Source: Gulosibacter massiliensis
Lineage (GTDB): Bacteria; Actinomycetota; Actinomycetes; Actinomycetales; Microbacteriaceae
NCBI GenBank assembly: GCA_945949175.1
Contig: CAMFDU010000004.1
Span: 1 to 55,653, forward strand
Length of the DNA: 55,653 nt
Direction of reading: 5' to 3'
Positions 9,295 to 46,393 of this stretch are shown here, in pieces. Position 1 is the first letter of the stretch; every line of letters begins with the position of its first letter. A model generated the notes under the pieces. That model was given only the letters and a program-made list of their open reading frames with translations. It was not told where the DNA came from and ran no database searches. Both the position numbers and the translations under genes were made by a program.

Positions 9295-10782
9295 ATGACT
9301 GACGAGTCCGAACTGTCGGCCGACGAGATTATCGAACAGAAGGCTGTTCGTCTCGCCAAGCGCGCCACGCTTCTCGAAACGGGTGAGGCCTACCCCGTGT
9401 CGGTTCCCGTCACCGACACGATCGCAGCTGTTCGTGCCGCCCACCAAGGTCTCGACGAGGATGTCGCGACCGGCGTGACGGCCGCTCTCGCTGGCCGAAT
9501 CGTGCACTCGCGCAACACGGGCAAGCTTTGTTTTGCCGCTCTGCAGTCCGGCGACGGCGAGCGCATCCAGGCAATGCTGTCCCTCGACGTTGTGGGCGAA
9601 GACTCCCTCGAACGCTGGAAGGATCTCGTTGATCTCGGCGACCACGTGTTCGTCAAGGGCGAGGTCATCACCTCCAAGCGCGGCGAACTGTCGATTCTCG
9701 TATCGGAATGGCAAATGGCGGCGAAGTCCCTTTTACCGCTGCCAAACCTGCACGCCGAATTGGGCGAAGAGACGCGGGTTCGCCAGCGTTACCTTGACCT
9801 CATCGTGCGCGACCAAGCCCGCCAGAACGTCGTGACCCGCGCGAAGGCGATGGCGTCGCTGCGTGAGACATTCGCCAAGCACGGCTTCCTCGAGATCGAA
9901 ACCCCCATGCTGCAGACGATGCACGGAGGTGCGGCCGCCCGTCCGTTCGTCACACACTCGAACGCGTTCGACATGGAACTGTATTTGCGCATCGCCCCCG
10001 AACTTTTCCTCAAGCGCGCGGTCGTCGGCGGAATCGAACGCGTGTTCGAGATCAATCGCAACTTCCGCAACGAGGGCGCCGACTCGACGCACAACCCCGA
10101 ATTCGTGATGCTCGAGTTTTATCAGGCGTATGGCGACTACAACACCGTCGCCGACCTCACGCAAGAGATGATTCAAAACGCGGCCGTTGCCGTCGCCGGT
10201 TCGCATGTTGTCACCTGGAATGACGGCACCGAATACGACTTCGGAGGTGATTGGGCACGTATCTCGATGTTCGAATCGCTTAGCACCGCGGTCGGCACCG
10301 AGATCACCCCCGAGACGCCCATGAAGACGCTCGAATCAATGGCGAAAGCCTCCGAGATCGAGGTCCAACACCCGACCCACGGCAAACTCGTCGAGGAACT
10401 GTGGGAACACCACGTCAAGGGCGACCTCGTGCGCCCCACGTTCGTCATGGACTTTCCCGTTGACACGAGCCCGCTCGTGCGCGAACACCGATCGAAGCCC
10501 GGCGTCGTCGAAAAATGGGACCTGTATGTTCGCGGGTTCGAGCTCGCGACTGGCTATTCCGAGCTAGTCGACCCGATCATTCAACGCGAGCGATTTGTCG
10601 AACAGGCGAAACTGGGCGAGCGCGGAGACGTCGAAGCGATGCGGCTGGACGAAGACTTTCTGCGCGCACTCGAGCACGGCATGCCGCCAACCGGCGGCCA
10701 AGGCATGGGAATCGACCGGCTGCTCATGGCGCTGACCGGGCTTGGTATCCGCGATACCGTCCTATTCCCGCTGGTAAAGTAG
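9295..10782 (+). CDS. lysS: Lysyl-tRNA synthetase (class II)
   Basis: RQRYLDLIV, FLEIETPML, FRNEGADSTHNPEFVMLEFYQAY, GMGIDRLLM. Confidence 0.96.
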   Translation: MTDESELSADEIIEQKAVRLAKRATLLETGEAYPVSVPVTDTIAAVRAAHQGLDEDVATGVTAALAGRIVHSRNTGKLCFAALQSGDGERIQAMLSLDVVGEDSLERWKDLVDLGDHVFVKGEVITSKRGELSILVSEWQMAAKSLLPLPNLHAELGEETRVRQRYLDLIVRDQARQNVVTRAKAMASLRETFAKHGFLEIETPMLQTMHGGAAARPFVTHSNAFDMELYLRIAPELFLKRAVVGGIERVFEINRNFRNEGADSTHNPEFVMLEFYQAYGDYNTVADLTQEMIQNAAVAVAGSHVVTWNDGTEYDFGGDWARISMFESLSTAVGTEITPETPMKTLESMAKASEIEVQHPTHGKLVEELWEHHVKGDLVRPTFVMDFPVDTSPLVREHRSKPGVVEKWDLYVRGFELATGYSELVDPIIQRERFVEQAKLGERGDVEAMRLDEDFLRALEHGMPPTGGQGMGIDRLLMALTGLGIRDTVLFPLVK

Positions 10783-10788
10783 ACCTAC

Positions 10789-10968
10789 ATGATTCAAGAC
10801 TTTTGGGGTAACGCCATCTTTTCGCTCGTGCCGACCATCCTGATCGGGCTGATTTTCTGGTTCATCATGCGCAGTATTCTTCGCGCCGACCGCACAGAAC
10901 GCGACACCCTCAAGAAATACGAAGCCGAAGAGCGCGCTCGTCGCGGGCTTCCAGCCACGAAGGACTAG
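10789..10968 (+). CDS. Small single-TM protein (59 aa), not in the supplied ORF track
   Basis: Translation MIQDFWGNAIFSLVPTILIGLIFWFIMRSILRADRTERDTLKKYEAEERARRGLPATKD*; TM segment followed by a charged tail; directly follows lysS. Confidence 0.75.
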   Translation: MIQDFWGNAIFSLVPTILIGLIFWFIMRSILRADRTERDTLKKYEAEERARRGLPATKD

Positions 10969-11534
10969 TTCGCGTCCTCGGGAACAGCGATTTTCCAGAG
11001 CAGTTTTGCCGGCACGAATGTCGTCAGCCACACCGACGAGTCGGGGCTGGTTCGGCCAACGGGCTCCGGAAGAGCCTTGGTTTCGATTTCGAACAGTGCC
11101 ACCGGAGCGTTGCGTCGGTTGCCGACCTTCACCGCACGCATTGGGTCCTCGTGCATGTGAACATAGACTCGCTTCTGCGGAAGCAGTCCCTCTTTTCGGT
11201 CAAGAATCGCATCAAGGTTGTATTTCGGAGTCGCATGGTACAGGTACTGTGGCGCCTTGTTGAGGTCGATTAAATCAATCTGAACATTCGGATTGCTGTG
11301 CCCATAGAACGCCCGCGCTTTCGTGCCGTCAATACTGAGCTCGAATCGATCGTTTCCGTCGGGCCCGACCTCGCGTAGAACGTCATCGACCGTCACGATG
11401 ATGTCGTCTTCGGCTAGGCGCGTGACGATGTCGGTCAACGGAAGCCACCCGACAGAGTCGAGTTCGACATCGATCGCGTGGCGCAAAATGAAGGCAATCG
11501 CGCCACCTAGACGTTGAGAGTTGTTTCGAGCCAC
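10965..11534 (-). CDS. kptA: RNA 2'-phosphotransferase (Tpt1/KptA family)
   Basis: GGAIAFILRHA, GWLPLTDIV, RFELSIDGTKARAFYGHSN, LYHATPKYNLDAIL, AVKVGNRRNAPVALFEIE. GTG start. Confidence 0.88.
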   Translation of the reverse strand: MARNNSQRLGGAIAFILRHAIDVELDSVGWLPLTDIVTRLAEDDIIVTVDDVLREVGPDGNDRFELSIDGTKARAFYGHSNPNVQIDLIDLNKAPQYLYHATPKYNLDAILDRKEGLLPQKRVYVHMHEDPMRAVKVGNRRNAPVALFEIETKALPEPVGRTSPDSSVWLTTFVPAKLLWKIAVPEDAN

Positions 11535-11669
11535 CCTTCGAGCCTACGGTTTAGCGCCCGCCAGGCTCACCGCCGCCGTTTTGCCCTCGGCGAAATCGCC
11601 CCATCGACCCTCGCGCCGGCGTTACTCTCGCACTAATGACCCACGCACCTGCGTGAAGGAGATGACGAG

Positions 11670-14222
11670 ATGTTTGAACGATTTACCGACCGGGCCCGTC
11701 GAGTCGTGGTGCTTGCCCAAGAAGAAGCAAAGCAACTTAACCACAACTACATTGGCACCGAGCACATCCTGCTCGGTCTCATTCGCGAGGGCGACGGCAT
11801 CGCCGCGAAGGCTCTCGCCGAACTCTCGATTTCGATTGATAACGTGCGCGAACAAGTTCAGGAAATTATCGGCCAGGGCCAGACCGCCCCGACCGGGCAC
11901 ATCCCATTCACGCCCCGTGCCAAGAAGGTTCTCGAACTTAGCCTCCGTGAGGCACTGCAGTTGGGACACAACTACATTGGCACCGAGCACATCCTGCTCG
12001 GACTTATTCGCGAAGGGGAGGGCGTCGCTGCCCAGGTACTCGTCAAACTGGGTGCGGACCTCACACGCGTTCGCCAGACCGTCATTCAGTTGCTCTCGGG
12101 TTACCAGGGCAAGGAATCCGCGGTCGTTGGCGGAACCGAATCAACCTCGTCCGACAAAGGATCCACGATTCTCGATCAGTACGGACGCAACCTCACGCAG
12201 GCGGCGCGCGATGGAAAGCTCGACCCTGTCATCGGGCGCGAGAAGGAAATGGAACGCGTCATGCAGATCCTTTCCCGTCGTACCAAGAACAACCCCGTCC
12301 TTATCGGCGAACCGGGTGTCGGAAAGACCGCTGTCGTGGAAGGACTCGCGCAGTCAATCGTTAAGGGCGAAGTCCCCGAGACGCTCAAGGATAAGCAGGT
12401 GTACACGCTCGACCTCGGCAGCCTGATTGCCGGAAGTCGTTACCGCGGTGACTTCGAGGAGCGACTCAAGAAAGTCACCAAGGAAATTCGAAACCGAGGC
12501 GACATCATCGTTTTCATCGACGAGATTCACGCGCTCGTGGGCGCGGGTGCGGCAGAAGGCGCGGTCGATGCGGCCAGCATCCTTAAGCCCATGCTCGCTC
12601 GTGGCGAACTACAGACCATCGGTGCGACGACACTCGACGAATACCGCAAATACTTTGAAAAGGACGCGGCCCTCGAGCGCCGTTTCCAGCCCGTGACCGT
12701 CAACGAACCGTCCGTCGCCCACACCATCAATATCCTCAAGGGACTTCGTGACCGCTACGAAGCGTTCCACAAGGTGTCAATTTCGGACGGCGCACTGACG
12801 GCCGCGGCGACGCTCGCCGACCGGTACGTACAAGACCGATTCCTCCCCGACAAGGCCATCGACCTTATTGACGAGGCCGGCGCCCGCCTGCGTTTGTCGA
12901 TCTTGTCATCGCCCCCTGAACTTCGCGAATTCGACGACAAGATCGCTGTCGTTCGGGCCGAGAAGGAAAAAGCCATCGAAAACCAGGACTTCGAAGGCGC
13001 GGCGAAGTCGCGCGACGAAGAGAAGAAGTTGCTCGGCGAGCGCCTTCGCTTAGAAAAGGAATGGCGCAAAGGGGACAAGGGCGAACTCGGAACCGTGGAC
13101 GAAGGCATTATTGCTGAAGTTCTTGCTCAGGCAACCGGCATCCCCGTGTTCAAGCTGACCGAAGAGGAAAGCGCGCGCCTGCTCATGATGGAAAAGTCGC
13201 TGCACCAGCGTGTCATCGGCCAGGAAGAAGCCATCTCGGTTCTGTCCAAGACAATCCGACGCACGCGAGCCGGACTCAAGGACCCGAAACGTCCGTCCGG
13301 GTCGTTCATCTTTGCCGGCCCGACTGGTGTCGGAAAGACCGAACTTGCCAAGGCGCTCGCCGAATTCCTATTCGACGACGAAGACGCCCTCATTTCTCTG
13401 GACATGTCGGAATACGGTGAAAAGCACACGGCATCGCGTCTGTTCGGTGCCCCTCCCGGGTACGTCGGATTCGAAGAGGGCGGGCAGCTCACCGAGCGCG
13501 TTCGTCGCAAGCCGTTCTCGGTCGTGTTGTTTGACGAAATCGAAAAGGCTCACCCTGACATCTTTAACTCGCTGCTGCAGGTTCTCGAAGAAGGTCGTCT
13601 GACCGACGGTCAGGGACGTGTCATCGACTTCAAGAACACGGTCATCATTATGACGACCAACCTCGGAACGAAAGACATCACCGGCGGCCCCGTCGGCTTC
13701 ACTTTGCAGGGCGACTCGGAGCAGTCCTACAAAGCGATGCGCTCGAAGGTCATCGAGGAACTCAAAAAGCACTTCAAGCCAGAGTTCCTCAACCGTGTCG
13801 ACGAAACAATCGTGTTCCCGCAGTTGTCGCAAGACGAACTCTTGCAGATCGTCGACCTGTTTGTCCGCCGCTTGCGCGAGCGCATGCTCGACCGCGACAT
13901 GACTCTGGATGTCACCGATGCGGCTCGTCGTCAGTTGCTCACGATTGGGTGGGACCCGATGCTCGGTGCCAGGCCTCTTCGTCGTGCGATTCAGCACGAA
14001 GTCGAAGACATGCTGTCGGAAAAGATTCTCAACGGGGAACTCTCGATTGGCCAGCACGTCCTCATCGATTTCGCTGATGATGAATTCACGGCGGTGATGA
14101 CCGGTTCGATTCTTCCCGTGGAAGAACCCGCCGCCGGTCGCAGACCGAAATCGGCGAAAGTCCCGGCGGATTCGGCACCCGACGTTGCGCCGACGGACTC
14201 TGGAGAAGACACTCCGTCGTAA
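11670..14222 (+). CDS. clpC: ATP-dependent Clp protease ATP-binding subunit ClpC
   Basis: Duplicated N domain ([19 protein letters not shown] twice), two AAA+ domains ([26 protein letters not shown]), UVR-like linker. Confidence 0.97.
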
Positions 14223-45980: not shown

Positions 45981-46133
45981 GAGTGCCACGAAGGCACCAT
46001 GCGAGGTTAGCACCTCAAACCGTCACGGGTGAAATCTCACAGGCTTGGATTTGCGGCCTTTTGGCGTCATTGTGAAGAGCCAACCGCCCCAGTCATCTCG
46101 CGCGACACGCCACAAACACTAGATGTAGTGAAA

Positions 46134-46162
46134 TTACACGAATGTCATTCCCGCCATATAGT
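46134..46162 (+). promoter_or_regulatory. Candidate sigma-70-type promoter of the 27-aa ORF
   Basis: TTACAC (46134-46139), 17 nt, TATAGT (46157-46162); overlaps imperfect palindrome GTGAAATTACAC. Confidence 0.5.
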
Positions 46163-46205
46163 GTTTTCCTCACGGCATCCTCGCCGCAAACCTTCAGGAG
46201 GAACT

Positions 46206-46289
46206 ATGGACTTCGACAACGACAGCGTTGGCGGCTATGCGGTTCCCGTCGACCCGATGGACCTGCTGCAGTGCGATAGCTGCCAGTAA
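46206..46289 (+). CDS. 27-aa acidic microprotein MDFDNDSVGGYAVPVDPMDLLQCDSCQ
   Basis: RBS caggagga 4-5 nt upstream of ATG, own promoter-like element and terminator; C-terminal CDSCQ. Confidence 0.7.
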   Translation: MDFDNDSVGGYAVPVDPMDLLQCDSCQ

Positions 46290-46307
46290 TTAGCTGAAGC
46301 CTTGAAC

Positions 46308-46344
46308 GCCCCGGCCACTCTGATGTGGTCGGGGCTTTCTTTTG
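46308..46344 (+). terminator. Intrinsic terminator of the 27-aa ORF
   Basis: gccccggccac tctgat gtggtcggggc tttctttt. Confidence 0.9.
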
Positions 46345-46393
46345 ACCGTTCCCAAACTCTGCGGGGCCTTGACATGCGCGCAATAATGAAGTC

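Follow-up and report, generated by a model that had tools for sequence, protein, structure and literature searches.

A 27-residue peptide gene of Gulosibacter massiliensis predicted to encode a detached redox tail of the ribonucleotide reductase NrdA

A free-standing gene for 27 amino acids in Gulosibacter massiliensis is predicted to encode the C-terminal CxxC redox tail of the class I ribonucleotide reductase (RNR) NrdA, detached from the catalytic chain that it would serve. Hardly any cell can do without RNR, and the chemistry of its tail is textbook material. It is highly probable that in this organism and its relatives the tail is made free, as a peptide of ~27 aa, from two genes, one coupled to nrdA and nrdB and one in a unit of its own under NrdR control, and that it serves a tailless NrdA in trans. 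The free-standing gene lies in the 55,653-nucleotide stretch of DNA that was analysed (the window), where its neighbours are genes for an M23 peptidase, tRNAs, a DUF4916/NUDIX protein and a decarboxylase. The features of the unit are collected in Table 1.

The open reading frame (ORF) is genuine and conserved, and no chance frame. The sequence-only reading of the window had proposed a microprotein conserved at the amino acid level, with its own transcription unit and with the CxxC as the conserved end, a proposal vulnerable to a lack of such conservation or to absence from relatives. What is found supports it: 63 of 149 related genomes have a match to the ORF with E <= 1, the value for most being far below 1e-6, and pN/pS is 0.145 for the 21-residue core (73 distinct nucleotide versions). 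The peptide of the window's genome is shared, residue for residue, by 10 congeners, and the best matches in other genera have 78-96% identity to the peptide. The core in host copies reads Y.VP.DPMD.LQC[DE]SCQ, where the P, the DPM, both cysteines and the final Gln are invariant in the aligned set; the C..CQ end, which places the cysteine pair near the C-terminus, is invariant in both alignments (A1 and A2). Most peptide-bearing genomes have two or more copies.

The elements of the unit that had been read from the letters (TTACAC, a 17-nt spacing and TATAGT, then a ribosome binding site, the ORF and a hairpin with a T-tract) are each present where they were placed, and the acidic composition of the peptide and the lack of a partner gene within its own unit were also correctly read. 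The terminator hairpin (46308-46335) is GC-rich, with 11 pairs, and is followed by TTTCTTTT. By themselves, the promoter and terminator pattern matches are near chance, with 0.9 and 2.4, respectively, expected in a region of this size; they are raised above chance by the conservation of the ORF and of the operator pair described below. An Rfam search of the window gave only two tRNAs above the cut-off. A palindrome, ACACTAGATGTAGTG, at 46116-46130 was absent from the original list of elements.

Table 1. Features of the free-standing peptide gene (positions in the window)
Feature	Position	Strand	Basis
NrdR-type box 1, ACACTAGATGTAGTGA, near-palindrome	46116-46131	+	Sequence; same pair in nrdA promoters; model
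Putative -35 element, TTACAC	46134-46139	+	Sequence, pattern scan
NrdR-type box 2, TCCCGCCATATAGTGT, overlapping the -10	46149-46164	+	Position in free-standing copies; model
Putative -10 element, TATAGT, inside box 2	46157-46162	+	Sequence, pattern scan
Shine-Dalgarno sequence, CAGGAGGA, containing CAGGAGG	46195-46202	+	Sequence
27-aa ORF, MDFDNDSVGGYAVPVDPMDLLQCDSCQ, probable free-standing NrdA C-terminal redox tail	46206-46289	+	Homologues, conservation, fused NrdA counterpart
Start (ATG) and stop of the ORF	46206 (start); 46287-46289 (stop)	+	Sequence
Predicted intrinsic terminator, hairpin and T-rich tail	46308-46345	+	Sequence, pattern scan

The same sequence (...CPVDPMEALQCESCQ) forms the end of NrdA itself in other actinobacterial families. 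The NrdA of an outgroup family ends ...VVGGVACPVDPMEALQCESCQ and is followed by nrdB, and that of four families (f10, f5, f38 and f45) ends in ...CPVDP(M/Q)E(A/R)LQCESCQ or a near variant. Apart from the detached copies, the tail in class- and phylum-wide samples closes long frames, and those inspected are NrdA. That the outgroup NrdA ends in the sequence of the peptide argues strongly that the peptide is a detached C-terminal CxxC redox tail of class I NrdA. The sequence-only reading had instead offered a metal-binding microprotein, a RiPP precursor modified by a distant enzyme, or a signal. The peptide is small and acidic with a C-terminal CxxC, as each of these would allow, but the identical end is the terminus of NrdA in relatives with an unsplit NrdA, the conserved part is the tail with no leader/core layout, and NCBIfam holds no family matching the 27 aa. 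No RiPP modifying enzyme is found among the neighbours in the window, and in place of a distant RiPP enzyme the unlinked partner would be the tailless NrdA. A RiPP, metal-binding or signal role is scarcely credible on this evidence. In a tree of NrdA, the close fused sequences form one clade (100/99) as against 46 split rows, and this clade nests among the split NrdA with weak support (84/80). The tree leaves the direction of change unfixed, and fission would be the simpler reading given the fused tails elsewhere.

The NrdA proteins that accompany the peptide are tailless. The second copy of the peptide gene in the window's genome is on another contig (C10:1377-1460), between nrdA and nrdB, where it overlaps the nrdA stop by a few bases and has nrdB downstream. 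This nrdA encodes a class I enzyme of 822 aa with an ATP-cone, ending ...PRRGFGFGGSSSTGGES and with nrdB next door. It is the one RNR alpha gene in the genome, in which no NRDD-type enzyme was found (genome 94% complete). None of the 44 split-clade NrdA examined has the CxxC end; after TTYYL, 43 have no cysteine at all and the remaining one has a single cysteine. The catalytic residues, aligned with 5im3, are nevertheless kept: the cysteines in QLANCF, NLCTEI and VCNLAS and the tyrosine pair of TTYYL. A motif, [RK][RK]GF[GA], is present near the C-terminus in all 44 (for example at L031 1457-1600) and also in the linkers of many fused NrdA; as a guess, it may be the docking point for the peptide.

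A separate tail ORF lies just after nrdA in 41 of the 44 split loci, usually beginning at the nrdA stop or overlapping it. No adjoining tail ORF was found at the other three, one of which (L049, genome G023) has a disturbed nrdA frame and a tail close by. In two genomes, G067 and G029, the interval between nrdA and nrdB is without a tail ORF and the single tail in the genome is unlinked, so that there the tail must act in trans. Alternatively, programmed frameshifting or stop readthrough at the junction could fuse the tail to NrdA, the unlinked copies being side products. Relative to nrdA, the tail ORF is in frame 0, 1 or 2 at 5, 4 and 32 of the 41 loci, and a single frame at 32 of the 44, mostly at or overlapping the nrdA stop, would suit such joining, as would the five loci in frame with nrdA. 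However, the occurrence of all three frames argues against one conserved recoding signal, and the junctions of G067 and G029 exclude recoding as a general solution. The free-standing copies, moreover, have their own promoter and are more conserved, and 117 of the 120 viral stretches listed (see below) are without nrdA or nrdB nearby. Joining of the tail to NrdA is thus very unlikely, and a tail made as a separate peptide is preferred.

The separately encoded second chain co-occurs with the catalytic chain, as in a split RNR. Among 90 genomes of the window's family (f1), NrdA and a free tail are found together in 49, a tail only in 2 and NrdA only in none; the two tail-only genomes are incomplete (68% and 75%). 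The other 39 have neither, and those inspected have a class Ib NrdE with a fused tail, ...CVSCML. By its RNR, the family falls into two sets, one with a tailless class I NrdA and free tails and the other with a fused-tail class Ib NrdE. Named genomes with a detached tail include Leifsonia, Salinibacterium, Cryobacterium, Glaciihabitans, Humibacter, Microcella, Aurantimicrobium, Naasia and Schumannella, all of them Microbacteriaceae.

The free-standing gene also shares an operator with nrdA. The NrdR regulon is marked by two 16-bp boxes lying about three helical turns apart over an RNR promoter (PMC12051234, PMC9110341), normally with 15-16 bp between them, although 14-17 bp is tolerated (PMC12051234). 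The spacer in the window, at 17 bp, is 1 bp longer than in most nrdA promoters and inside this range (PMC12051234). The free-standing unit resembles the known regulon in its box pair over a promoter related to RNR, in a genome that encodes NrdR (TIGR00244, 147.8 bits), but differs in that the regulated gene encodes a 27-aa peptide and is far from nrdAB. An operator model of two boxes, trained only on the nrdA promoters of other genera and allowing variation in the spacer, gives the window site a score of 21.5, as against 0.7 for the next best site in the 55 kb and 5.9 for the best in 60 surrogates; the genome's own nrdA promoter scores 19.9. An earlier model with fixed spacing placed the window promoter first but weakly, and it was the variable spacer that resolved the ranking. 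In nearly all free-standing copies, ATATAGTG stands exactly 40 nt after the start of box 1. Binding of NrdR to the box pair in the window is what these matches would lead one to expect.

Among the named host copies, the operator pair is present at 60 of 75 unlinked copies versus none of the 44 that adjoin nrdA or nrdB, for which the nrdA promoter presumably serves. Of the 15 unlinked copies without the pair, some are near misses or lie at contig ends. Around the others, nearby genes include those for an integrase and for peptidoglycan-binding, VanY and Fic proteins, and this company suggests that these copies sit in prophages or other mobile elements. The N-terminus of the free-standing copies, MDxENDxVGGY, is more conserved than that of the operonic copies, and this could be a sign that the free-standing copy has some other redox job, with a different enzyme for example, and that only the nrdA-adjacent copy serves RNR. 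The free-standing copy, though, shares the RNR operator, and in G067 the unlinked copy is the sole copy in the genome, which makes such a division of roles improbable. Service to NrdA by both copies is the favoured reading.

In RNRs, the active site is reduced again after turnover by the cysteine pair of the tail, which thioredoxin or glutaredoxin then recycles (PMC4520616, PMC9669993, PMC5704485). A free tail peptide would be expected to dock on NrdA in trans after each turnover, to reduce the active-site disulfide by thiol exchange with its CxxC and then to leave, with thioredoxin or a similar redoxin returning the oxidised peptide to its reduced form. NrdR would shut off the free-standing gene together with nrdAB when dNTPs are plentiful, and through this control the free-standing gene could adjust the dose of peptide. 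A point against action in trans is that an untethered tail loses the effective concentration that a tethered tail enjoys.

A peptide that matches the segment that would dock, and whose free-standing gene is separately regulated, might alternatively act as a competitive inhibitor or regulator of RNR at the tail-docking site rather than as a reductant. We give this little credence. The copies seen in hosts, plasmids and phages all retain both cysteines (although the search patterns required them), and the NrdA of split genomes is without another tail. Co-repression with nrdA fits a partner and not an inhibitor, and there is no obvious gain for phages in blocking the supply of dNTPs. The reductant role thus remains the preferred one.

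Carriage of the free tail extends to mobile DNA. It is found in three isolated phages, phiPsal1 (host Pontimonas), CMP1 (host Clavibacter) and Pan2, in 19 plasmid records from Clavibacter, Leifsonia and Gryllotalpicola, and in at least 120 IMG/VR contigs; for 117 of the 120 contigs listed, there is no nrdA or nrdB in the stretch that was fetched. In phiPsal1 and CMP1, the tail follows the holin gene, in a gap that carries no annotation. One group of viral contigs has the peptide gene between the genes for the terminase large subunit and the portal protein, and other groups have it after holin genes. The operator pair is present at none of the 118 viral copies in which it could be tested, and the copies of the isolated phages and of the plasmids likewise lack it. 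The DPQER-type pattern of the fused tails of other actinobacterial families has no match in the same viral collection, and the viral signal is therefore specific to the detached type.

It seems reasonably likely that the phages and plasmids of the family carry the tail alone, outside NrdR-type control, as an auxiliary metabolic gene of ~25 aa that raises host dNTP synthesis by providing a reductant in trans. Copies without the operator could plausibly keep host dNTP synthesis running while the phage or plasmid replicates. If so, the phage-borne tail would rank with the smallest metabolic genes that phages are known to carry. The copy in the Pseudanabaena phage Pan2 (Pan2_27; L249 3999-4082) is a diverged free tail, MDDFDTIDGFACPNDPADLVSCESCQ, with a cyanobacterial host label. 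It misfits a host range of Microbacteriaceae only, a point against the detached-tail explanation; unless the host label is mistaken, detached tails extend outside the window's family. Integration of the peptide gene at neighbouring tRNA genes was considered and set aside, since tRNA-Met/Thr genes are nearby in the window's genus and at two other loci but not at most.

Class I NrdA is known to occur in more than one polypeptide: that of phage Aeh1 is fragmented by the insertion of mobE. In that phage it is the catalytic chain that is broken, by a homing-endonuclease gene, whereas here only the tail is detached. In the usual class I enzyme the tail is tethered in the alpha chain (PMC9669993); the peptide has the same C-terminal cysteine pair and a homologous sequence but is a separate ORF, presumably made separately. 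The closest parallel is NrdJa/NrdJb of Pseudomonas aeruginosa, a split class II, B12-dependent RNR in which NrdJb, of 229 aa, is encoded in one operon with NrdJa, and which a 2015 paper describes as the sole split RNR known from any organism other than a virus (PMC4520616). In both systems the catalytic chain keeps its catalytic residues and is without the redox-active end. In NrdJa/NrdJb, dithiol exchange runs through the separate chain, on which function depends, and by analogy its counterpart here would be the peptide. The present case differs from NrdJa/NrdJb in being class I, in the size of the detached part (~27 aa) and in its several copies, as well as in the unlinked gene with its own operator and the solo carriage by phages and plasmids. 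In the open-access literature searched, there is no description of a free RNR tail gene, no report of a split RNR that is this small, unlinked or phage-borne alone, and no match to QCDSCQ, QCESCQ or DPMDLLQC.

With the swinging arm of RNR cut loose as a peptide whose dose is set separately, one could vary tethering, reductant supply and turnover independently, and the free tail would offer a clean way to test how the RNR tail works. The phage-borne solo tail would be the more radical part, should an effect on dNTP supply be shown, and it hints that some auxiliary genes of phages may lie far below the size that annotation pipelines search for. The detached tail also accounts for mostly unannotated ORFs of 20-40 aa in Microbacteriaceae and in their plasmids and phages.

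Several individual copies merit comment. A 33-aa plasmid free tail (L248 3965-4066; NZ_CP065038.1, IT072_RS20885) bears the misleading name 'ribonucleotide-diphosphate reductase subunit beta'. Two matches (L128 and L145) are on contigs labelled Acidobacteria; L128 resembles a Microbacteriaceae copy, has the operator and is likely to be misbinned, while L145, with no operator and an odd N-terminus, may be a chance match. One viral contig, L300 (IMGVR_UViG_3300010885_033832, 9780-13302), has a free tail just upstream of an nrdA of its own, and this nrdA is interrupted, precisely at the catalytic cysteine (SNLC|...|CTEI), by an in-frame insertion of ~312 aa whose ends are intein-like. Two genomes, G055 (L037-L040) and G066 (L041-L043), have five or six tail copies each, and some of the extra copies appear to be set among mobile-element genes. 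Extra copies at four loci (L161, L173, L205 and L220) have a common upstream stretch, CTCCGGTATTCCACG or close to it, which suggests one mobile-element family or a shared leader.
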